Of a stretch of 64,000 nucleotides of DNA, positions 985 through 12,969 are shown piece after piece. The stretch comes from Corallococcus soli (GTDB taxonomy: Bacteria; Myxococcota; Myxococcia; Myxococcales; Myxococcaceae), in assembly GCF_014930455.1 (NCBI RefSeq), contig NZ_JAAIYO010000001.1, positions 310,001 through 374,000 on the forward strand, written 5' to 3'. The notes beneath the pieces were generated by a model. It was given only the letters and a program-made list of their open reading frames with translations. It did not search any database and was not told the DNA's origin. The position numbers were made by a program, and so were the translations under genes. Each line of letters opens with the position of its first letter. Positions within the stretch are counted from its first letter, which is position 1.

Positions 985-2175
985 CTACTGGGGCGAGAAG
1001 CCCAGCGTCAGGCCGAACACGTGCGCCGAACCGGAGTACGTCCCGGCGATGCCCGGCGCGGTGCTGTTCTTGTCCGCCAACGCGACGAACTGGTAGCCCA
1101 GGTCCGCGCGGAAGGGATTGAACGCATAGCCCACGCCCAGCGTGGCCTTGATGCGGTTCGCGTCCGGCAGGTCCGGCGTCAGCGTGTTGTTGGGGCTGGG
1201 CGACGGGTCGTACACGAAGCCCGCGCGCACGTTGAGCGCCTGCGTCACGCCGTACTCGGCGCCCAGGGAGTACTTCCACTTGGCGCGCCAGCGCTTCTGC
1301 AGCGGGTTGTCGATGGACGGATCCTCGAAGCGGATGGCCAGCTGCGAGAAGCTGGACCAGTCCACCCAGCTCGCGTCGAAGGCCAGCAGCAGCCGGTCCA
1401 TGGGCGAGTACGACAGGCCCGCCGTCACGGTGGACGGCAGCACGACGTCCGCCTTCGCGCTCTGGTCGCGCAGGCGGCTCTGGAACTCCACCGGCACGTT
1501 CTGGAAGTCCGCCTTGCCGTCGAAGGAGATGTCCACGGCGCTGCGGTAGTGCAGACCGAACCGCAGGTTCTCCAGCACCAGCGCCTGCACGCCGATGTTG
1601 AAGCCGGTGCCCCAGTCCGCGCCGCCCAGGTGGACGCTGCCCTCGCTGTTGACGAAGTCCAGGCCGCGCGTCAGCTCGATGGTGGCCCGGGCGATGTCCA
1701 GACCCACGCCGAAGCGGAAGCGCTCGTGGAGCTCATACGCGATGGTGGGGTTGATGTAGTACGTGGCCAGCGACGACTCGCTGCCGCGGAAGCGGCCGCT
1801 GAAGCCGTCTTCCCAGCGGCTGCGCGCGCCGTAGGGCGTGAACACGCCCACGCCCAGCGCCAGCTTCTGGAAGGGCTTGTACACGACGAACAGGTGGGGC
1901 GGAGGCGACAGGGTCGTCTTCTGCCCTTCCTGCACGCCACCCACCCGCTGGAACTGGATGTTGGGGAGGATGCCCGTGTCACCGATCGTGATGTCCAGCT
2001 TCTTCACGCCGATGATGTTGGCCGCGTTGTAATAGATGGCGCTGGAGTCCTCCAACGCCGCCGTGGCGGTGCCGCCCATACCGGTGGCACGCGCGCTGTG
2101 GGTGTCGATCTGGAAGCCCGCGGCCTGGCTCGTACCAGCCGCCAGCATCGCCACGAGGGAGAGTGTCTTTTTCAT
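985..2175 (-). CDS. FadL/OmpP1-family outer-membrane transport protein
   Basis: This 396-residue protein has a signal peptide (MKKTLSLVAMLAAGTSQA) followed by a mature N-terminus starting AGFQIDTHSARATGMGG. That matches the N-terminal hatch of FadL/TodX/OmpP1 channels, which let long-chain fatty acids and other hydrophobic compounds cross the outer membrane. The rest is alternating beta-strand with conserved family pieces (SAIYYNAA, SPPPHLFVVY, GVFTPYG) and ends in an aromatic strand near the C-terminus (FGLTLGFSPQ). Length is normal for the family. It starts only 29 bases after the lipase-like lipoprotein gene on the same strand, so the two are probably one operon: the lipase would release fatty acids outside and this channel would take them in. 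That coupling is inferred from the arrangement. Confidence 0.9.
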   Translation of the reverse strand: MKKTLSLVAMLAAGTSQAAGFQIDTHSARATGMGGTATAALEDSSAIYYNAANIIGVKKLDITIGDTGILPNIQFQRVGGVQEGQKTTLSPPPHLFVVYKPFQKLALGVGVFTPYGARSRWEDGFSGRFRGSESSLATYYINPTIAYELHERFRFGVGLDIARATIELTRGLDFVNSEGSVHLGGADWGTGFNIGVQALVLENLRFGLHYRSAVDISFDGKADFQNVPVEFQSRLRDQSAKADVVLPSTVTAGLSYSPMDRLLLAFDASWVDWSSFSQLAIRFEDPSIDNPLQKRWRAKWKYSLGAEYGVTQALNVRAGFVYDPSPSPNNTLTPDLPDANRIKATLGVGYAFNPFRADLGYQFVALADKNSTAPGIAGTYSGSAHVFGLTLGFSPQ

Positions 2176-2204
2176 GGGTGTGTGTGTCCTCTCTCAGGGG
2201 GCGA

Positions 2205-5174
2205 CTACGGCTGCGCCGCGACAGCGCCGGTGTCCAGGAACGTGATGACCTGATCCTGGGCCGCGTCGCGGATGGCGACGTTGACCCGCGGATCGCTCAG
2301 GAAGCCGTGACGCAGGTCCGGAGCCAGATCATCGGTGCTGTACTTGAACTGGTAGGAGGCCACGGTGCGGGGCGCGTCGGTGCGGTTGGCCGCGGCGATG
2401 ATGGCCTGCGTCGTGGGGTTCGGGATGACGCCGTCGCCTTCGATGTACTGGATGAAGGCGCGGTGGACGTTCGCGTCCGTGCCCGCCGCCGGCGTGTTCT
2501 CCAGGCCGTAGGCGTAGTTGCGCGGGTCCGCCGGGTCCAGGATGGTGCCCGCCAGGCTCATGAACGTGTCGAACGCCGGGAGGCCCGGGGTGATGCCCGC
2601 GGTGCCGAGCTGCTGGAGGAACGCGGTGCGCACGCCCGCGAAGCCGGGCGAGGTCAGCAGGATGCCGACCAGGTTGCCACCCGGGGTGTTGAGCGCCGCG
2701 CGGTGCACGCGGGGCGACGTGCCGGAGATGAGCGTGCCCAGGATGCCGCCGAGGCTCTGGCCCACGTAGTCCACCTGGGTGGCGTCGAGCTTGGCGCCGC
2801 CCACCTGCGTGAGGGCCGCGGACATCTCAGGGCTGGACAGCACGCGCTGGAACTGGGCGAAGTCCAGCACCGAGTGCCGGAAGTTGTCGCGCGTGGCGAA
2901 GAGGTTGCCCGGGTTCAGGATGTTCCAGCCGGAGATGGCCGGAGCGTTCGTCTGGGGGTTGAGCAGGAAGCTGCCACCCTCGCACTTCTTGTCCGCGAGG
3001 CAGCGGCCCTGGCCCTGGCTGGAGCAGAACAGGTCCGCGGGCGTGACGCCGCGGGAGGCGTCGTCACAGGCCAGGCGGGTGCTGTCCACGCGCGCCACGC
3101 AGCGGCCATAGGACTCCTTGGAGACGTCGGTCTCGCAGCGCTGGGCGCTGGGGTCGGCGCACGCGCCGCTGTCACCCGCGGGGTTCGCGGGAGGCAGGGC
3201 CGAGGCGGCGCCCACGCAGGTGGTGCGATCGCCGTGGAAGACGGTGTCCATGGACACGACCGCGTAGCCGGCGCCGGTCAGCTTGTTGGCGACGCCGAGC
3301 ACGTTGGTCCGGTTGCCCGTCAGGCCGTGGCCGAAGACCACCACCGGGTAGCCCGTGGCGGGCGCCGGGGTGGACGGCAGCAGCACCATGAAGGGGTAGC
3401 GCGTGGGGCGCACCTCCGACGGGTTCAGCGTGCCGCTGGGGCCCGTCAGCAGGAACGGCGTGTTGGCCTGCGCCTCGAAGGTGGCGCCGATGTTGTTGCT
3501 GGCCAGACCCGAGGCCGCCATCGCGCCCTTCACCTGCGACGTGGTGGGGACGACGAAGTTCGGCGCGTTCGGGTACGAGACGGCCGTGGGCAGCGCGTTG
3601 AGCTGGTTGAGCACGGACGTGGTGCTCTGGGTGGTGAAGCCCCAGCCCAGCGCGATCTGCGAGCGCTTCAGGCCCATGCCGCCCTTTTCCGGCGCCAGCG
3701 CCACCTTGTCGAAGAACGTCTTGAGCAGCAGGCGCCGCGGCTCCAGCTGCGCGGCGAGCGCGTCCGGCACGGAGGAGATCTGGCTCTTGCCGTTGGCGTA
3801 CACGGGGTTCGCCAGACGCAGCAGCGCGAAGGCGGTGGCCGGGGCGACCTTGCGGCCCTGGGTGTCCTTCAGCTCCGTGGTCAGCACCGCGCCGTACTCC
3901 GTGGCGCCGTCGAGCGGCGCCTTCGGGACGATCTGCAGCTGCTGGGGCACCGGGGCGACGCCCGTGGGGGCCACGCTGGTGCCGCAGTCACCGGTGTTGT
4001 TCACCAGGCAGACGGCCACGTCGGGCTTCGTGCCCTTGTCCAGGTTGGACAGCTTGGCGAACTTCACGCCCTCGGCGAGCGAGGCCGGGTCCACCTTGGG
4101 GGCCGCGGCATCACCGGGCCCGCGGAACTGCGTGCCGTCCAGCACGCCCTGCCCGTCGCCGTTCTCCGACACGATGGCGCCCGTGGTGGAGAAGCCGTCC
4201 AGGGTGTTGAGGCCCTGGAACAGCTGCTTCTGCAGGCCGTCCTGCGCGGGGATGGGGAAGTCCAGCCGCGCGGGCGTACCTTCCTTCGTGGCCGCGATGC
4301 GGATCAGGTCGTTGGGGAAGGGGATGATGGGCGCGGGCAGCCGGGCGGTGGGCGCCAGGCTGATGGTGGCCTCCGGCTGGTCGAGGATGGTGAAGGTCCA
4401 CAGCAGGACCACGTCCTCGCGCTTGATGCCCTTCTGCACCAGGCCTTCGATGAGCGGCGCGTAGCCGCGGCGCAGCTGCTCCAGCTGCTTCGCGCTGGCG
4501 ATCTGGTCTTCCAGGCGCTTGGCGGCGTCCGTCTCCGTGGAGGGGATGATCTCCGTGGCCGGCGCGCAGTCCGGCGCGGTCAGGTCCTCGCACGTCACCA
4601 GCGGCTTCACGGAGCTGACGAAGGACCACGTGGCCGAACCGATGATGGGGTGGCCCGCGGTCGTCTTCAGGCCGTTCTCACCGCCGATGAGCGCCACCGC
4701 GTAGCGGCCGCCCTTCGGCCACGCCGGCAGACCGGTGTTCGCGTCGACGGGCGGGATGAGGCTGATGAGGTCGGTCGTCTCGTTGTACGCGATGGTCGGC
4801 GAGACCGGCTTGGTCGCGATCGGCGTGCCCGCCTTCAGGTCGATGAAGATGACCGACTGGGGGCCCATCGAGGTGGGATCCAGGTCCTGCACCTTGGTCG
4901 TCGCCACCGCGGACGTCGGGAAGCCGTTGAGCGTGTTCAGGTACTCGCGCGTGAACTCCTGCTCCGCGGGAGACGCCGTCGGGTTGATGGGGGCGTTCAC
5001 CAGGCCCGTGGCCCGATTGATGGCCAGGTCGTTGGGTGAGGGAACGACGGCGGGCGTGCCCGAGGGATCGAACTCCGCGAGGCCAACGTTCGTATTCGGA
5101 GCGTCCTGCGCGATCTCGGGCGTGCAGGAAACGGCTCCCAGGGCCATGGCCCCAAGGAACAGCGATTTCTTCAT
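2205..5174 (-). CDS. VolA-like outer-membrane lipase/lysophospholipase lipoprotein
   Basis: This 989-residue protein starts at the ATG preceded by GGAGGGG. It has a lipoprotein-type signal (MKKSLFLGAMALGAVSC; alanine at -3 is slightly off the lipobox consensus). The N-terminal two thirds resemble the bacterial lipase N-terminal domain (FDPSGTPAVVPSPNDL, repeated later as PIIPFPNDLIRIAATKEG). The C-terminal third is an alpha/beta hydrolase with oxyanion loop VVFGHGLTGNRTN and nucleophile elbow VDYVGQSLGG (Ser807). Between them is a cysteine-rich insertion (about nine Cys) that could be a disulfide-stabilised lid. Vibrio VolA, a surface lysophospholipase encoded beside fadL, is the closest named relative I can think of. 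The same lipase-then-FadL order occurs here with a 29-base gap. Substrate is inferred; extracellular lipid or phospholipid is likely in a predatory, lipid-consuming bacterium. Confidence 0.8.
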   Translation of the reverse strand: MKKSLFLGAMALGAVSCTPEIAQDAPNTNVGLAEFDPSGTPAVVPSPNDLAINRATGLVNAPINPTASPAEQEFTREYLNTLNGFPTSAVATTKVQDLDPTSMGPQSVIFIDLKAGTPIATKPVSPTIAYNETTDLISLIPPVDANTGLPAWPKGGRYAVALIGGENGLKTTAGHPIIGSATWSFVSSVKPLVTCEDLTAPDCAPATEIIPSTETDAAKRLEDQIASAKQLEQLRRGYAPLIEGLVQKGIKREDVVLLWTFTILDQPEATISLAPTARLPAPIIPFPNDLIRIAATKEGTPARLDFPIPAQDGLQKQLFQGLNTLDGFSTTGAIVSENGDGQGVLDGTQFRGPGDAAAPKVDPASLAEGVKFAKLSNLDKGTKPDVAVCLVNNTGDCGTSVAPTGVAPVPQQLQIVPKAPLDGATEYGAVLTTELKDTQGRKVAPATAFALLRLANPVYANGKSQISSVPDALAAQLEPRRLLLKTFFDKVALAPEKGGMGLKRSQIALGWGFTTQSTTSVLNQLNALPTAVSYPNAPNFVVPTTSQVKGAMAASGLASNNIGATFEAQANTPFLLTGPSGTLNPSEVRPTRYPFMVLLPSTPAPATGYPVVVFGHGLTGNRTNVLGVANKLTGAGYAVVSMDTVFHGDRTTCVGAASALPPANPAGDSGACADPSAQRCETDVSKESYGRCVARVDSTRLACDDASRGVTPADLFCSSQGQGRCLADKKCEGGSFLLNPQTNAPAISGWNILNPGNLFATRDNFRHSVLDFAQFQRVLSSPEMSAALTQVGGAKLDATQVDYVGQSLGGILGTLISGTSPRVHRAALNTPGGNLVGILLTSPGFAGVRTAFLQQLGTAGITPGLPAFDTFMSLAGTILDPADPRNYAYGLENTPAAGTDANVHRAFIQYIEGDGVIPNPTTQAIIAAANRTDAPRTVASYQFKYSTDDLAPDLRHGFLSDPRVNVAIRDAAQDQVITFLDTGAVAAQP

Positions 5175-5375
5175 GGTGGGATTCCCCTCCAGCCAAGGTG
5201 TACTGCTGGAAACATCGCAGTGAGTAGCACGCCCTCTGTCCGTCACAAAGTGAGAGGGATTGACGCGATGAGTCAGATCTGGGGTGGTGCCATGCGCGTG
5301 GGAGTGGACGTCCCGCGCGGTGCGTGCGGGCGACAGGGCGTGACGCGCGCGCGAACGCGGTTACGCTGCGGCCCC

Positions 5376-5915
5376 ATGAAACGACTGCTGACTGTGTTGG
5401 CGATGACCGTGGCGTTGAGCGCGAGCGCGGAGGAGGCCGGGGGCCTGACGTGGAGTGCGCCCCCGGAGTGGACGGCCCAGCCCGCGCGGCCGATGCGCGC
5501 GGCCACCTACAAGGTGCCGGCGGCGAAGGGAGACGCGGAAGACGCGGAGCTGGCTGTCTTCTACTTCGGCGCGGGGCAGGGCGGCGCGGTGGACGCGAAC
5601 GTGAAGCGCTGGGTGTCGCAGTTCCAGAAGCCGGACGGCAAGCCGGTGGATCCGGACAAGGACGCGAAGACGAAGCAGGAGAAGGTGAACGGGATGCCCG
5701 TCACGACGGTGGAGGTGAAGGGCACGTACGCGGGGGGCGGCCCGATGATGGGACCGTCCACGCCCAAGCCGGGTTTCAAGCTGCGCGGCGCCATCGTGGA
5801 GGGGCCGGAGGGGGCGCTCTTCTATAAGCTCACCGGGCCGGAGAAGACGGTGAACGGGGCGGAGAAGGGCTTCCGCAAGCTGGTGGAGTCGGTGAAGCCG
5901 GCGGCGAAGAAGTAG
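5376..5915 (+). CDS. Exported protein of unknown function
   Basis: This encodes 179 residues with a cleavable signal peptide (MKRLLTVLAMTVALSASAEE). The mature part begins LTWSAPPEWTAQ and contains YKVPAAKGDAEDAELAVFYF and a VNGMPVTTVEVKGTY segment, ending in a lysine-rich tail. The pattern, a small periplasmic beta-sandwich-like protein with a repeated amphipathic strand order, is common in myxobacterial and other proteobacterial genomes, but I know of no assigned function. The ATG at 5376 was chosen because the signal peptide starts exactly there; longer in-frame extensions read as arginine-rich non-protein. It is divergent from the lipase operon across about 200 bases that must hold both promoters. 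Confidence 0.75.
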   Translation: MKRLLTVLAMTVALSASAEEAGGLTWSAPPEWTAQPARPMRAATYKVPAAKGDAEDAELAVFYFGAGQGGAVDANVKRWVSQFQKPDGKPVDPDKDAKTKQEKVNGMPVTTVEVKGTYAGGGPMMGPSTPKPGFKLRGAIVEGPEGALFYKLTGPEKTVNGAEKGFRKLVESVKPAAKK

Positions 5916-6306: not shown

Positions 6307-6607
6307 AGGGAGGGGCCCCGCTCCTCGCGCGGCCACGGCGGAGCCCGTGGGCCTGGAGGGTGGGGCGGGCAGGGGGACACCCCCGCGCCGTGTCACTCGG
6401 ACGCCGGGGAGGGGAAGCCCTGGAGGCCGGAAGGCTGACCGGTGGTGGACACCTGCCCTTGCGCAATGTGCCGGCAGCGAACACCTCCGTGTGTGACTGG
6501 CGGCTGTCTGACGACTCGTACTGGCGGGCGGGCTGCAATCCCGGGAGGAGGTCAACAGCCTGTTAGCGGTGCTCACGGCTTTCCGCCGTGGGCGGAGGAG
6601 GCGGGTC
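6307..6607. other. Intergenic stretch with no gene found
   Basis: About 300 bases lie between the CBS gene and the nucleotidyltransferase gene. Open frames here have no ribosome binding site and look like chance GC-rich frames. The only clear signal is GGAGGAGGCGGG just before the ATG at 6608. A promoter for the downstream gene is expected here, but I saw no convincing -35/-10 pair. Confidence 0.4.
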
Positions 6608-7324
6608 ATGAAGGCAGTGGCGATCATCCTGGCGGCGGGGAAGTCCCGGCGGATGTCCCACCCCAAGGCGAACATCGAGCATGAGGGGGGCAGGAGCTTC
6701 CTTCAGTCGTTGGCGTCCACCTTTCTCAAGGCGGGGTGCGGGGTGTTGGGCGTGGTGGGCAGCGACGCGGCGATGGTGCGTGAACAGCACCCCTCGTTGA
6801 TGCTGGTGACGAGCGAGCACTGGGAGAAGAGCTTCCTGGCGTCGGTGAAGGTCGGCCTGGAGGCGGCGCTGCGGGAGGCCCGGGATTCGGATCCCGAAGG
6901 CACGGTCGCGGTGCTGGTGCACCCGGTGGACATGCCCGCGCTGCGCGTGAACACCGTCAAGTCCATGCTCAAGGAGATGGAGCGGGGGGACCCGAAGGGC
7001 GTCCTGGCCCTGCGGCCGGAGTACGAGAGCGCCAGGGGCTGGCCGCTGGTGCTCTCCCAGGCGGCGGCGGAGAAGCTGCTCCAGGCGGAGGGCGAGGACC
7101 TGGAGATGGCCCTCAAGGCGCTCAACCCGCGCCCGGTGAGCGTGAAGGACCCGGGCGTCATCGTGAACATCAACACGCCGGAGGCCTACGAGCGCGTCTT
7201 TGGCAAGGCGCCCATCCTGGCCCCTCCGCCCAAGCGGCGCGGCGTCAAGCGCGCGGGGGTCTCCAACGGCTCCGGGGCGGAGAGCGCGTCCCCGTCCTCC
7301 TACGCGGCGTCCCCGGAGGAGTAG
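6608..7324 (+). CDS. MobA-like NTP transferase domain protein
   Basis: This 238-residue protein begins MKAVAIILAAGKSRRMSHPK, the nucleotide-binding signature (LAAGxSxRMGxxK) of the MobA/MocA/GlmU-type nucleotidyltransferase fold. Later pieces fit the same fold: LVHPVDMPAL corresponds to the xDxP metal site, followed by a helix-rich C-terminal half (RGWPLVLS, GVIVNINTPEAY, the usual D-N-TPEDY position). The glycine after RM is a serine here. Family members move NMP groups onto cofactors or sugars (molybdopterin cytidylyl- or guanylyltransferase, sugar-phosphate transferases); the substrate cannot be assigned because no cofactor or sugar gene is nearby. The C-terminal 35 residues are a low-complexity Ser/Pro tail. 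The start has a strong GGAGGAGG site. Confidence 0.8.
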   Translation: MKAVAIILAAGKSRRMSHPKANIEHEGGRSFLQSLASTFLKAGCGVLGVVGSDAAMVREQHPSLMLVTSEHWEKSFLASVKVGLEAALREARDSDPEGTVAVLVHPVDMPALRVNTVKSMLKEMERGDPKGVLALRPEYESARGWPLVLSQAAAEKLLQAEGEDLEMALKALNPRPVSVKDPGVIVNINTPEAYERVFGKAPILAPPPKRRGVKRAGVSNGSGAESASPSSYAASPEE

Positions 7325-7341
7325 GCGGGCCTGGGGCTTGC

Positions 7342-7376
7342 CGGGGTTCGCGGGTGACGCGACCCCGGGAGTCTTT
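7342..7376 (+). terminator. Probable intrinsic terminator after the NTP transferase gene
   Basis: CGGGGTTCGCG pairs with CGCGACCCCG (one bulged T) around a five-base loop, followed by GGAGTCTTTT. It sits 17 bases after the stop codon and between convergent genes. Confidence 0.55.
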
Positions 7377-7394
7377 TCAGCCTTTCAGCCTTCT

Positions 7395-8246
7395 TCAGAA
7401 CGCGATGCCCAGGCCCAGGTAGGGGCCGGAGAAGGCGTCCTCGTGCACGACGCCATCCAGGCGGCCCGCGTCGTTGATGTACAGCGTGCGCCAGCCGCCG
7501 CGCAGGTTGAGGGCGCCCAGGTGCAGCGCGAGCCCGGCCTGCGCGTCCACCTGGCGGTGCGGGAAGGGCACCACCTGGATGCGCGCCTCCACATCCAGCG
7601 GTGACGGCCCGATGCACGCCTCCAGCGAGGCGGCGACGCTGGGGCCCACGAAGATGACGTCCGGGGCGTGCGCGCTGGCGATGCCGCCCTCGATGCGGAA
7701 GCGGCCGCGCTCGCTGGACCAGAGGGACGCGGTCAGGTGCGCGTCCAGCAGCGTCAGCCGGTCCACGTCCTGCGAGCCGTCGTCCGCCGACAGCGCGATG
7801 CCGGTGACGCGCGCGTTCATGCCCAGCCGCTGGCCATCCAGGCCCATGAAGAGGCCCAGCGCGCCGCCCGTCTCACCGAACATGTCGCCCTGCACGTTCA
7901 GGCGCACCATGGGCGGCATCGCCGCGGCGCGCACGCCGGGGCGCGCGTCCGCCCTGCGCGACGCGTGGTAGGCGGAGGGGCGGCTCATGAAGAGGAAGGA
8001 CACCCACGACAGGCGCGTGCGGCTGGGGCGCACGTTCGCTCGCACCGGGGCGTCCGAGGCGCGGCCGACGGGGCTCGCGCGGTGCGTGGAGCGGTCATCG
8101 TCGCTCCGGGAGTCCTTGTCCTTCTTGGAGTCGGAGGGCTTGGAGGCGGAGGGCTTCGAGCGCTTGCCGAAGCGGGCCTCGGCGGGCCCCGCCCCCAGCA
8201 GGACACCGACAGCGAGCGTGGCACACAACGTCTTCCAGAAGCCCAC
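7395..8246 (-). CDS. Predicted outer-membrane protein, paralogue of the next gene
   Basis: This 283-residue protein has a signal peptide (VGFWKTLCATLAVGVLLGAGPAEA) with mature start RFGKRSKPS, then a basic and acidic low-complexity linker (KPSDSKKDKDSRSDDDRS). The C-terminal 180 residues are beta-strand rich (VRLNVQGDMFGETGG, LGLFMGLDGQRLGMNARV) and end in GPYLGLGIAF, a barrel-type last strand with terminal Phe. It shares the ARFGK start, linker style and C-terminal half (ALHLGALNLRxGWR, DAGxxDGVxHxDxFxGPY) with the neighbour at 8429-9307, so the two arose by duplication. The GTG at 8246 follows GGAGGGG. No named family recognised. Confidence 0.75.
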   Translation of the reverse strand: MGFWKTLCATLAVGVLLGAGPAEARFGKRSKPSASKPSDSKKDKDSRSDDDRSTHRASPVGRASDAPVRANVRPSRTRLSWVSFLFMSRPSAYHASRRADARPGVRAAAMPPMVRLNVQGDMFGETGGALGLFMGLDGQRLGMNARVTGIALSADDGSQDVDRLTLLDAHLTASLWSSERGRFRIEGGIASAHAPDVIFVGPSVAASLEACIGPSPLDVEARIQVVPFPHRQVDAQAGLALHLGALNLRGGWRTLYINDAGRLDGVVHEDAFSGPYLGLGIAF

Positions 8247-8428
8247 GGCGAACCCCTCCTCTTCACCGACCCCCGAGAGGGGCCACGGCATCTGGACGCC
8301 TGCTCGCCCGGAATATTCAACCGCCATCACCCCACCGGGCGCCAGGGCCCCCGGGGCGCAGCCGCGTGTTCGCCAGGGGGCTGTGCTCCCCCGGACATCC
8401 GCGGGCCCCCAGGGCCCGGTTTCAGGCG

Positions 8429-9307
8429 CTAGAAGGAGAAGCCCGCGCCGGCGTAGGGGCCGGTGAAGCGGTCCACGTGCGCGACGCCGTCCACCAGGCC
8501 CGCGTCGTCCAGGATGAGCCCGCGCCAGCCCGCGCGCAGGTTGAGGGCGCCCAGGTGCAGCGCCACGCCCGCGCTCGCGTCCAGCTGCCGGTAGGGGGCG
8601 GGGGTGCCCTGCACGCGCACCTCCAGGTCCAGCGGGCCCACGAGGCAGGCCTCCAGGGAGGCGGCGAGGCTGGGCCCGGCGAGGAAGACGTCCGGCGCGC
8701 TGGCCATGCTGAAGCCGACCTCCGCGCGCAGCCGCATCCGGTCCGTGGACACGGCGGCCCAGGACAGGTGCGCCGCCATCAGGTGGATGACGTCCGTGCC
8801 CGGGGTGCCGTCGTCGGTGGGGAGCGTCAGCTTCGTGCCCTGGAAGGCGACGCCGAGCGTGCTCCCCTCGATGCCGAGGAAGACGTCCCCCGAGGTGCCA
8901 CCGCCCATGGCGCCGACGTTGAGGCCCAGGCGCACGTCGAGCGGCGCGCTGGGAGGGGACGGGGGCCTGCCGCGGACCGCCATGTCCGCCAGGTCCCGGG
9001 CCTCGCCGTCGCTCAGGGCGCTGGACGAATAGGTGGGCGCGTCGCCGTAGAGGTGCTGCGTGTAGGAGGGGCCTGACGTGTCGCAGCAGTCGTCGTCATC
9101 GTCGTCGTCCGCGGGCGGCGTGTACGAGGAGGCCTCGTGCGTGGAGCGGGGCGTGATGGGGCTCGCCGCGTGGACCCGGGAGTCCTTGTCGTCCTTGCTG
9201 TCGGAGGAGGGCGCGGACTTCTTGCCGAAGCGGGCCTCGGCGGCGGGAGCGGCCAGCAGCAGACCGACGACGAGTCCGGCGCACAGCGTGGGGCGCGAGG
9301 CAGACAC
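8429..9307 (-). CDS. Predicted outer-membrane protein, tandem paralogue
   Basis: The 292-residue protein has a signal peptide ending APAAEA and mature start RFGKKSAPSS. A low-complexity linker follows, which includes a run of seven aspartates directly followed by two cysteines (DDDDDDDCCDTSG). The C-terminal barrel-like half matches the protein at 7395-8246 and ends FTGPYAGAGFSF. The Asp run and adjacent Cys pair are absent from the paralogue and could bind metal, but that is a guess. I used the GTG at 9307, where the signal peptide begins; its ribosome site is weak (CTGGAG). The intergenic gap to the paralogue is about 180 bases and shows nothing notable. Confidence 0.72.
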   Translation of the reverse strand: MSASRPTLCAGLVVGLLLAAPAAEARFGKKSAPSSDSKDDKDSRVHAASPITPRSTHEASSYTPPADDDDDDDCCDTSGPSYTQHLYGDAPTYSSSALSDGEARDLADMAVRGRPPSPPSAPLDVRLGLNVGAMGGGTSGDVFLGIEGSTLGVAFQGTKLTLPTDDGTPGTDVIHLMAAHLSWAAVSTDRMRLRAEVGFSMASAPDVFLAGPSLAASLEACLVGPLDLEVRVQGTPAPYRQLDASAGVALHLGALNLRAGWRGLILDDAGLVDGVAHVDRFTGPYAGAGFSF

Positions 9308-9414
9308 GGGAAGCTCCAGGGCAGGGGATGGGAGTGGGCCCCTGGAGTGCCTGACGTGAAGCCGCGTGCGTTTATTCAAGGCCGTGCCGCGATTCGCGGC
9401 GCGCGGGCCCCCTT

Positions 9415-10281
9415 TCAGCGGCGGGCCATCTTCTTCGCCTTGGCCTTCGCGGCGCGCTTCACGGGGCGCGGTGGCGGCTCGGTGCTCGCCACGGCCACGC
9501 TCTGCGGCGTCACCGGCGTGGGGGACAGCCGCAGCGTGACGCGCCGGTTGAGGGCGCGGTTGGGAGGACTGTCGCCGGGGACCCTGGGGCGGTGCGCGGC
9601 GTGGCCGGTGGCGCTCAGGCGCGCCGGGTCCAGCTTCTCGCGCTCGCCCAGGTGGCGCACCACGGTGACGGCGCGCGCGGCGGACAGCTCCCAGGCGGTG
9701 GACGCGGGGGCGCCGGGCGCGGCCGGGAGCACTTCGTCCGTGTGGGCCTCCACCGCCACGCGGTGGTCCGCGAGTGCGCCCTGGAGCACGCCCGCGGACT
9801 GCTTCAGCAGGCGGGCCCCTTCGGGCGTGAGCTGCGTGCTCGCGGGGGCGAAGAGGAGCCGCTCGGACACCTCCATGCGCAGGGCGTCGTCCTCCAGGTC
9901 CAGCGACACGTCCCCGCCCGCGAGCGCGTCCTTCAGCGCCGCGCCCAGGGTCGCGAGCGCCGCCTCGCGCCGCATGTGCTGCGCCTCCGCGTTCCGGGCC
10001 TGGACCTGCGCGGCGGCGCCGCCCCACTCCGCGGCCTGCTGCTGGCGCTCCAGCGTGCGCAGCCGCCGCTCCATGGCTTGCCGCAGCGTCTGCAATTGCG
10101 CGACGTGGGCCTCGGATTCGGTGGCCTCGCGCTCCAGCTGCGCGGCGCGCGTCTCCAGCGCGTGGAGCGAGCGCGAGCCCAGCCAGGCGCCCGCGGAGGC
10201 CACCACCACCCCGACGGCCAGCAGCCCCCAGGGCAGCCACCGCCAGCGTCCACGCGCTGCTTCGGTCCGGGCGTCGTCCAT
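9415..10281 (-). CDS. OmpA/MotB-like peptidoglycan-binding membrane protein
   Basis: The 288-residue protein has one N-terminal membrane segment (WLPWGLLAVGVVVASAGAWLG) without a cleavage site, then about 100 residues of coiled coil rich in Glu, Gln and Arg (LETRAAQLEREATESEAHV). The C-terminal domain is OmpA/MotB-type: RLLFAPASTQLTPEGARLL, then VEAHTDE, SAARAVTVVRHL and NRALNRRVTLRLS. Key positions for binding diaminopimelate are partly kept (the D of HTDE and the NR...R region). It most likely anchors in the inner membrane and reaches the peptidoglycan. A basic tail of Lys/Ala/Arg ends it. The ATG at 10281 was chosen; longer frames add a non-membrane extension. Confidence 0.75.
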   Translation of the reverse strand: MDDARTEAARGRWRWLPWGLLAVGVVVASAGAWLGSRSLHALETRAAQLEREATESEAHVAQLQTLRQAMERRLRTLERQQQAAEWGGAAAQVQARNAEAQHMRREAALATLGAALKDALAGGDVSLDLEDDALRMEVSERLLFAPASTQLTPEGARLLKQSAGVLQGALADHRVAVEAHTDEVLPAAPGAPASTAWELSAARAVTVVRHLGEREKLDPARLSATGHAAHRPRVPGDSPPNRALNRRVTLRLSPTPVTPQSVAVASTEPPPRPVKRAAKAKAKKMARR

Positions 10282-10371
10282 GGCCCGCAAGGGTAACGGC
10301 GCCCCCGGGGGGGACGGCAAGGTGGGCCCCGTGCGAAACCCCACGCCCGCCCGCTTCGGCCGGGCGCCGCG

Positions 10372-12969
10372 TCAGGCCGGGGCCGCTCCGGACGGTTTCT
10401 TCCACCGGGGCAGGCGCAGCACGAAGCGCGAGCCGGGCCCGCCCTCCGGCGGGGACTCCACGGACAGGTCGCCTCCGTGCGCGCGCGCGAGCTGGCGCGA
10501 GATGTAGAGGCCCAGGCCCATGCTGGCGCGCGAGTGCTGGCCGGTGGCGCGGGCGAAGCGCTCGAAGATGCGCTCGCGCGCTTCAGGGGGGATGCCAGGG
10601 CCCCAGTCCCGCACGGCGATGAGGGCCTGGTCCCCGTCGCGCTCCACGTACAGCTCCACCGGCAGGCCCGGGGCGTACTTCATCGCGTTGGTGAGCAGGT
10701 TCATCAGCACCTGCTCCACGCGGGGCCGGTCCGCCATGGCCACCACGGGCGCGTCCGCGTGCACCACCGCCACGCAGCCCGCGGTGGCCAGCGCCTCTTC
10801 CATCCGCGTCACCAGCGCGTGCACCAGCGAGGACAGCTCCACCGCGCCCAGCTCCAGCGCCATCTGCCCGGTGCCCAGCCGCGCCACGTCGAACAGGTGC
10901 GCCACCAGCCGCGTCAGCCGGTCCGCCTGACGCAGGGCCCCCGCCAGCCCCTGGCCCAGCCGCTCCGCCTCCTCCGACGGCTGCTTGTCCAGCGTGCGCT
11001 GGAGGGACGCCAGCTGCAGGTGCAGCGCGGACAGGGGCGTGCGCAGCTCGTGCGTCGCCACCGCCACGAATTCGTCGCGCGCGGCCACGGCCTGCTCCGC
11101 CTGCCGGTACAGCCGGGCGTTGTCCACCGCGAGCGCGGCGCGCCACGCCAGGTCCTCCAGCGACGCCAGGTCGCGCCTGCTGAAGCGCCGCGTGGGGGAG
11201 CAGGACGCGGCGCTGATGATGCCCAGCGTGCGCCCCCGCGCCGTCAGCGGGACGACCATCACCGAGTGGGGCTGCAGCTGCTCCAGGATGGCCCGGTGCT
11301 CCGCGTTGACCGCGAAGCGCTGCAGCGCCTTTTCGTCCACCTCCGCCACCAGCTCCGAGCGGCCCGACTCCAGCACCCGGCGCAGCGTCGTGTTCGCGCC
11401 GGGTGGGGGCGCGAACGCCATGGACTTCTCCAGCTGGGCCTGGAGGACGGCGTCACGGGCCTGGCGCTCCACGCGCTCCAGGTGCTGGCCGTCCGTGGCC
11501 AGCATGTCCACCAGGCAGTAGTCCGCCAGCTGGGCCACCACCAGCTCCGCCACGTTGCGCACCGTGGTGCGCCAGTCCAGGGACGTGGACAGCCGCGTGG
11601 TCGCCTCCGTGAGGAAGCGCAGGTGCTTCTCCATGCGGCGCTGTTCGGTGACCTCGCGCACGATGCCGCCCACGCCCAGCAGCTCCGAGCCGGAGCGCAC
11701 GGGGAAGTACGTGGCCAGGAAGGTGCGCGGCTCCGGGCCGCCGACGTACTCCACCGGGTCGTCCACCACGGCCTCTTCCGTCGCCAGCACGCGGCCCAGC
11801 AGGTCCTCGATGGGCGCGCCCGCCGGGCCCATCAGCTCGCGGGGCGTGCGGCCCAGGTGCTGCTCCAGGGGGATGCCGTTGTTCTCCGCGACGACGCTGT
11901 TGACCCGCACGTAGCGCAGGCCCGGGTCGACGAAGCCCATGCCCACCGGCGACGCGGCGAGGAAGGACTCCAGCAGCGCGGCGGTCGCGTCGCGCTCGCG
12001 CAGGGCGCTGCGCGCCTCGCGGTACAGCCGGGCGCTCTCCACCGCCAGCGCGGCCCGGCGCGCGAACTCCGTGGCGTACGCCAGGTCGCGCCGGGTGTAG
12101 CGCCGTCCGGGGGACGCGGAGACGAGGTTGATGAGGCCGAAGCGGCGCTCGCCCACCGCCAGGGGCAGCAGCATGGCGGAGTGCGGCTCCAGCGCCTCCA
12201 GCAGGCGCCGGTGCTCGGGCGTGCGCGCCAGCAGGTCCAGCTCCTCTCGGGTGACGTCGGCCACGAGCACGGGCCGGCCCTGCGCGAACACGCGGGCCAG
12301 CGGCGTGTCCGAACCGGACTCCGGCGGGAAGGGCATCAGCTGGTCGAGCAGCCCCTGCTTGCGCGGATCCTTCGCGGTGACGACCAGCCGGTGCAGGTCG
12401 CCGTCGGTGTCCAGCACGTCCACCATGCAGTAGTCGGCCCACTCCAGCGTGGCCAGCCGCGCCACCGCCTTGAGCGTCGTCTCCCAGTCCAGGGATTCGG
12501 CGAGGAGGCGGCTGGCCTCGCTGACGAAGAACTCCGCGCGCTCGGTGGCCTTGCGCTCGGTGATGTCCACGTTGACGGTCACCGCGCCCAGCAGGTCGCC
12601 GTCCTCCGTGTAGAGCGGCGCGGAGGAGTTGAGGATGGTGCGCCGCACGCCCGCGCGCCCGACGACGTCCACCTCCTCGTTGGAGATGGTCTTCCCGGTG
12701 CGCAGCGTGCGCGCCAGGGCCCACTCCTCGCCCCGCAGGCGCCGGCCGCTGCCGGGCCAGTACGCCTCGAAGAGGCCGTAGCGCTCCAGGCCCATCTCCT
12801 CCAGGGCGGGCGCCCCCCACAGCGCGCTCGCGGCGGCGTTGGCCGCGAGCAGGCGTCCCGCCGTGTCCACGATGATCACCCCCACCGGCAGCAGCTGCAT
12901 CACGGTGCGCAGCCACTCGTGCCGCACGGGGGTGGACTCCCCCAGGAAGGTGCCGGTCGGCTCGGACAT
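10372..12969 (-). CDS. PAS-GAF-PAS-GAF sensor histidine kinase
   Basis: This 865-residue soluble kinase has no membrane segment. Order: PAS (about 15-125, VGVIIVDTAGRLLAANAAAS), GAF (about 150-320), PAS (about 330-440), GAF (about 455-620), HisKA (ATHELRTPLSALHLQL, phospho-acceptor His) and HATPase with N box (LMNLLTNAMKY), G1 (VRDWGPGIP) and G2 (GLGLYISRQLARAHGG). The two GAF blocks match each other at several points (SLDWxTT, ADYCxVDxL, LExLxPHSxM, RRDLA, ALAVxxARLYR), showing an internal duplication of the PAS-GAF unit. No response-regulator gene is adjacent, so it is an orphan kinase. Start: the MSEPTGT ATG, with a G-rich site upstream. Confidence 0.9.
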   Translation of the reverse strand: MSEPTGTFLGESTPVRHEWLRTVMQLLPVGVIIVDTAGRLLAANAAASALWGAPALEEMGLERYGLFEAYWPGSGRRLRGEEWALARTLRTGKTISNEEVDVVGRAGVRRTILNSSAPLYTEDGDLLGAVTVNVDITERKATERAEFFVSEASRLLAESLDWETTLKAVARLATLEWADYCMVDVLDTDGDLHRLVVTAKDPRKQGLLDQLMPFPPESGSDTPLARVFAQGRPVLVADVTREELDLLARTPEHRRLLEALEPHSAMLLPLAVGERRFGLINLVSASPGRRYTRRDLAYATEFARRAALAVESARLYREARSALRERDATAALLESFLAASPVGMGFVDPGLRYVRVNSVVAENNGIPLEQHLGRTPRELMGPAGAPIEDLLGRVLATEEAVVDDPVEYVGGPEPRTFLATYFPVRSGSELLGVGGIVREVTEQRRMEKHLRFLTEATTRLSTSLDWRTTVRNVAELVVAQLADYCLVDMLATDGQHLERVERQARDAVLQAQLEKSMAFAPPPGANTTLRRVLESGRSELVAEVDEKALQRFAVNAEHRAILEQLQPHSVMVVPLTARGRTLGIISAASCSPTRRFSRRDLASLEDLAWRAALAVDNARLYRQAEQAVAARDEFVAVATHELRTPLSALHLQLASLQRTLDKQPSEEAERLGQGLAGALRQADRLTRLVAHLFDVARLGTGQMALELGAVELSSLVHALVTRMEEALATAGCVAVVHADAPVVAMADRPRVEQVLMNLLTNAMKYAPGLPVELYVERDGDQALIAVRDWGPGIPPEARERIFERFARATGQHSRASMGLGLYISRQLARAHGGDLSVESPPEGGPGSRFVLRLPRWKKPSGAAPA

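Follow-up and report, generated by a model that had tools for sequence, protein, structure and literature searches.

A lipase gene beside fadL is already known from Vibrio, where fadL is encoded next to volA, the gene of a surface lysophospholipase. VolA is surface exposed in Vibrio and likewise when made in E. coli (PMC5500766). In Myxococcus xanthus, MXAN7037 is annotated as OmpA, MXAN7039 as a putative lipoprotein, MXAN7040 as FadL and MXAN7041 as a cyclic nucleotide-binding protein (PMC3222651, PMC5131308). Purified M. xanthus outer membrane yielded 34 peptides of MXAN7039, second in the table to Oar (40), and 13 of MXAN7040; both proteins also appear in a biotinylation study of whole cells and vesicles, and MXAN7039 is listed as an outer-membrane beta-barrel (PMC3222651). 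A mutant in MXAN7040 does not incorporate alkynyl-palmitate, and its development and lipid bodies are normal (PMC4048283). The lipase Q1CWS1 and the FadL protein Q1CWS0 were both detected in M. xanthus grown with suberin (PMC5158114); Q1CWS0 is MXAN_7040 (PMC6627406), and from the neighbouring accession we infer that Q1CWS1 is MXAN_7039. Our literature search, which covered few subscription papers, found no paper joining VolA and Myxococcus.

The lipase and FadL genes of the window

The window, the whole stretch of 64,000 nucleotides of Corallococcus soli DNA analysed here, was said in a preliminary description to encode a large lipase-like lipoprotein followed 29 bases later by a FadL-type channel. 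The open reading frames, the lipobox and a match to PF03349 all agree with this arrangement (Table 1), and both genes lie on the minus strand, on which that description was silent. The lipase frame opens with ATG downstream of an RBS-like GGAGGGG. In a consensus scan, the minus strand of the 29-nt gap gave no terminator-like site, promoter and terminator scans being uninformative in DNA this rich in GC. Directly downstream of fadL, from position 1 to about 905 on the minus strand, is a gene for a SEC-C motif protein that runs past the window edge and does not adjoin the lipase–FadL pair in M. xanthus. Elsewhere on the minus strand, the frames at 7395-8330 and 8429-10405 resemble each other in an N-terminal stretch that is ARFGK-S/K-rich and in the C-terminal half (LHLGALNLR-GWR). 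They look like tandem paralogous secreted proteins, and a Pfam search with the first of them gave no match.

Table 1. Coordinates of the lipase–FadL pair and its parts in the window
Feature	Position	Strand	Description and basis
Lipase/phospholipase-like outer-membrane lipoprotein gene	2205..5174	minus	989 aa; ORF, TIGR03502, AF2 model
FadL-type long-chain fatty-acid outer-membrane channel gene	985..2175	minus	396 aa; PF03349, PDB FadL matches
Intergenic gap, 29 nt	2176..2204	minus	purine-rich RBS-like site ahead of fadL; sequence
Lipoprotein signal peptide and lipobox	5124..5174	minus	Cys17 is +1, Thr +2, Gln +7; motif scan
N-terminal module 1, Ig-like	4377..5063	minus	residues about 38-266; module HMM, self-BLAST, fold
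N-terminal module 2	3615..4343	minus	residues about 278-520; PF12262 E 3.5e-4, module HMM
Alpha/beta-hydrolase catalytic domain	2223..3536	minus	residues about 547-984; Foldseek, VIA
Cys-rich insert inside hydrolase domain	2982..3218	minus	8 Cys, residues 653-731; sequence and Cys columns
Nucleophile Ser807 (GQSLG)	2754..2756	minus	kept in 70/71 relatives (alignment)
Catalytic acid Asp914	2433..2435	minus	kept in 69/71 relatives (alignment)
Catalytic His956	2307..2309	minus	kept in 71/71 relatives (alignment)

The lipase carries the GxSxG nucleophile, Asp and His that mark the VolA/Pla-1 family. A Ser807 elbow and an oxyanion loop had been named beforehand, and both were recovered: Ser807 falls within GQSLG (805-809), and an oxyanion-type HG is found at 616-617. 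In an AlphaFold2 model of the protein (pLDDT 92.4, pTM 0.88), the catalytic domain matches the alpha/beta-hydrolase fold of PDB hydrolases (VIA Z 22.9 over residues 563-983; Foldseek E 7e-10), and acetyl-xylan and feruloyl esterases are among its best fold matches. By sequence, a PDB search with the lipase and a tblastn search of a plasmid collection returned no match. The two N-terminal modules are copies of one module (self-BLAST E 4e-4; module HMM), the second of which is the counterpart of the one Lipase_bact_N module found in VolA-type proteins. In structure they resemble Ig-like domains only modestly (Z at best about 8, over 99 residues), and relatives show Pfam Big_5 matches. The Cys columns of the insert are conserved across the Myxococcota rows of the alignment. 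The myxobacterial lipase is a variant form, with the N-terminal Ig-like module doubled and a Cys-rich insert in the hydrolase.

The lipobox, LGAMALGAVSC, fits a PROSITE PS51257-style pattern in a motif scan, and the lipoprotein signal with its lipobox is kept in most of the Myxococcota relatives examined. Lipoprotein sorting in M. xanthus sends proteins with Lys at +2 to the inner membrane and those with Ala at +7 to the extracellular matrix (PMC3222651); with Thr and Gln at these positions, the window lipase is expected in the outer membrane under the same rules.

The channel scores 218.7 bits against PF03349 (OmpP1/FadL/TodX; cut-off 29.7, E 1.2e-64, positions 2-417 of 421) and matches solved FadL proteins in the PDB. 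Against NF007988, the FadL equivalog of the E. coli type, it reaches 108.9 bits, below the cut-off of 585. A PF03349 search of the whole genome (9.4 Mb) gave this match alone, and the paired FadL is the only FadL in 14 of the 16 genomes of the genus (13 with one match, and one with a single FadL in two frames). At locus L005, the FadL partner is split across two frames (4415-5410 and 4938-5390 of G007:C279), through either an assembly error or a recent frameshift.

Family placement and conservation of the pairing

The locus had been likened to volA-fadL of Vibrio, and a search for VolA similarity did return a match to NCBIfam TIGR03502 (VolA/Pla-1; E 6.4e-35). The relationship holds, but the 120.5 bits lie below the curated cut-off of 383.9, which makes the protein a relative of VolA and not VolA itself. 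The M. xanthus orthologue scores 139.4. Within its own tree, relatives from Sulfurimonas (395) and Aquimonas (441) do pass the cut-off; we therefore place the window lipase, by its sequence, as a VolA homologue on a separate myxobacterial branch. PF12262 (Lipase_bact_N) gives 20.5 bits on the window lipase (E 3.5e-4; cut-off 22.3) and 34.3 on a three-module relative (L103), which passes. A search of the genome with PF12262 found no match, the module being too divergent. In the lipase tree, the window protein groups with Corallococcus, nearest to that of C. terminator (86% identity). A single module (about 690 aa) is usual in members from other phyla, against two in those from Myxococcota and three or four in those from some myxobacterial MAGs; four tandem N-terminal modules were seen in L110, L111, L112 and L031 (open frames of about 1430-1620 aa).

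In Myxococcota, weaker TIGR03502-like matches, scoring about 80-130 bits against the first profile, were considered as family members and set aside as a different subfamily; they had no FadL in the short stretches read. A record titled Comamonas sp. KCTC 72670 (L092) carries a Myxococcus-type lipase–FadL pair that groups inside Myxococcus, and this record looks mislabelled or contaminated.

That lipase and FadL form a two-gene unit is borne out by the strong conservation of their adjacency among relatives. FadL lies directly downstream of the lipase at all 27 untruncated close-relative loci. A draw of 146 Myxococcota genomes held 84 strong lipase genes, and FadL is immediately downstream of 79 of them (77 by coordinates and two, L078 and L081, by reading the locus). 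The remaining five are all second copies, spread over five genomes of a single genus, each of which also has a FadL-paired copy. All five have lost the nucleophile Ser to Gly and have an altered oxyanion HG, and their sequences suggest that they are probably pseudo-lipases serving another purpose, such as lipid binding. Second copies with these changes and no adjacent FadL were seen at L165-L169 (regions of G148, G126, G154, G137 and G151) and at L116.

A cross-phylum scan of one named genome per species yielded 75 evaluable loci, with an adjacent FadL at 58 (50 downstream, 5 upstream and 3 divergent). The upstream arrangement belongs to Granulosicoccaceae, whose loci form one clade (starred) in the lipase and FadL trees alike, and the divergent arrangement to Campylobacterota and a gammaproteobacterium. 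The other 17 loci have none, and active-looking relatives in other phyla often go without an adjacent FadL, so adjacency is not obligatory. We also rejected the assumption that adjacency means the same everywhere, as many members from Gammaproteobacteria have an intact triad and no adjacent FadL. Across 30 paired loci, which were selected for having FadL and are informative on other neighbours only, lipase and FadL are the sole neighbour families common to all; any further frames that recur either shadow the pair on the antisense strand or are confined to close relatives.

The two genes also co-occur at the level of genomes. FadL is present in all 101 lipase-positive Myxococcota genomes, and the lipase is absent from all 13 FadL-negative ones (Fisher p 6e-8, with no correction for kinship or genome size). 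Both genes are absent from four genomes of one same-family genus (9.5-12.3 Mb, at least 98% complete). Anaeromyxobacter carries the pair as well, as do relatives from Acidobacteriota and from sulfur-oxidising Campylobacterota.

Proposed function and alternative readings

We consider it probable that the two genes make up an operon for a lipid-scavenging unit, in which a surface lipase hydrolyses external lipids and feeds FadL. Since many related bacteria keep the two genes side by side, their products most likely cut fatty acids from external lipids and feed them into the cell. Under this proposal, the two genes would be co-transcribed as one operon, and the lipoprotein would be carried to the outer membrane and face outward, its hydrolase domain held out on the two Ig-like modules. 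There it would hydrolyse acyl esters of external lipids, whether phospholipids, lysophospholipids, acylglycerols or lipid polymers. The freed long-chain fatty acids would be handed over to the neighbouring FadL barrel, enter through it and go into beta-oxidation or membrane synthesis. Our analysis provides the gene structure, the intact triad, the hydrolase fold, the lipobox, the conservation of the pair, the co-occurrence and the loss of Ser in unpaired Myxococcota copies. The outer-membrane location of both proteins and the palmitate-uptake role of FadL come from published work on the orthologues, of which the M. xanthus lipase, on indirect evidence, is in the outer membrane and probably at the surface. 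More tentatively, lipase and FadL may form an obligate enzyme–channel complex in myxobacteria, docked by the Ig-like modules and passing fatty acids directly into the barrel. Catalysis would then no longer be selected in a lipase copy parted from FadL, as may be the case in the five Ser-to-Gly copies.

Unrelated functions of two chance neighbours are highly improbable, given the adjacency of 79 of 84 genes, its three arrangements, the lack of any other gene common to all pairs and the joint absence from genomes. The preliminary description went further than scavenging and read the pair as a machine of a predatory myxobacterium that strips prey lipids at the cell surface. The host group is predatory, and the phospholipid of prey would be a rich substrate. 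Yet the pair is carried by Anaeromyxobacter, which is not known to be predatory, and by further lineages (Acidobacteriota and Campylobacterota) not known for predation, whereas the same-family genus with large genomes has neither gene. Moreover, a published list has the FadL orthologue MXAN_7040 as down-regulated when M. xanthus is co-cultured with Sinorhizobium, from which the authors proposed another uptake process (PMC9548883). The predation-specific reading is weakly supported, and a pair specialised to strip the membranes of killed prey seems unlikely to us; the pair does not look dedicated to eating prey.

We give somewhat less credence still to a lipase that faces the periplasm. FadL would then import lysolipids or acylglycerols for hydrolysis by a lipoprotein anchored to the outer membrane on its periplasmic side, or the lipoprotein would clear lysophospholipids from the cell's own outer membrane. 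A periplasmic orientation is frequent among outer-membrane lipoproteins, and vegetatively growing cells express the FadL orthologue, which prey does not induce. This orientation is at odds with the exposure of VolA on Vibrio and E. coli cells (PMC5500766), with the presence of the M. xanthus orthologue in the whole-cell biotinylation and vesicle set (PMC3222651) and of a lipase taken to be this orthologue in culture supernatant (PMC5158114), and with the disulphide-rich insert in the lipase. Slightly less probable again is a depolymerase that feeds FadL from plant or microbial lipid polymers such as suberin, cutin or polyesters. The detection of both M. xanthus orthologues in suberin cultures would fit such a role, but growth of M. 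xanthus on suberin was not sustained (PMC5158114); the acetyl-xylan and feruloyl esterases among the best fold matches would also fit it, but these matches are generic across the superfamily.

The lipid-scavenging reading links an abundant, poorly annotated outer-membrane lipoprotein of myxobacteria to a fatty-acid uptake channel. By this reading, the main FadL route in Corallococcus, and perhaps the only one, would be lipase-fed uptake. The coupling of lipase and FadL is directly testable, since an M. xanthus fadL mutant with a phenotype exists.

Comparison with known systems

The M. xanthus pair MXAN_7039/MXAN_7040, identified by synteny, is orthologous to that of the window (48% and 62% identity), with gene order and close spacing retained. 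In M. xanthus (L090), OmpA, a small ORF, the lipase (6578-9754) and FadL come in this order, and a cyclic-nucleotide-binding gene follows on the opposite strand, which fits the published annotations of MXAN7037, MXAN7039, MXAN7040 and MXAN7041. A second FadL-like gene, MXAN_6116, is reported from M. xanthus (PMC9548883), whereas only one was found in the window genome. Unlike the listing of MXAN_7039 as a beta-barrel, the model of its window orthologue is a hydrolase lipoprotein with no barrel.

Pla-1/cef-type lipases of Gammaproteobacteria and Campylobacterota (for example L138 and L146) share the family tree and the catalytic motifs of the window lipase, and one of them (L138) has an adjacent, divergent FadL. 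They differ from it in having a single module and a length of about 690-730 aa, mostly no Cys-rich insert and, in many cases, no adjacent FadL.

The window lipase resembles VolA of Vibrio cholerae (VCA0863), a surface lysophospholipase, in being a lipoprotein that joins a Lipase_bact_N-type module to an alpha/beta hydrolase. The pair as a whole resembles VolA-fadL, where FadL is encoded alongside and a hand-over from lipase to FadL has been proposed. It departs from VolA in its low TIGR03502 score (only 120.5 bits against the cut-off of 383.9), its two N-terminal modules instead of one, its Cys-rich insert and its length of about 990 aa. Details that appear to be new are the doubling of the modules, the spread across phyla, the genomes with a single FadL and the unpaired copies that are dead, and a VolA-type lipase beside FadL spans several phyla and is not just a Vibrio trait.
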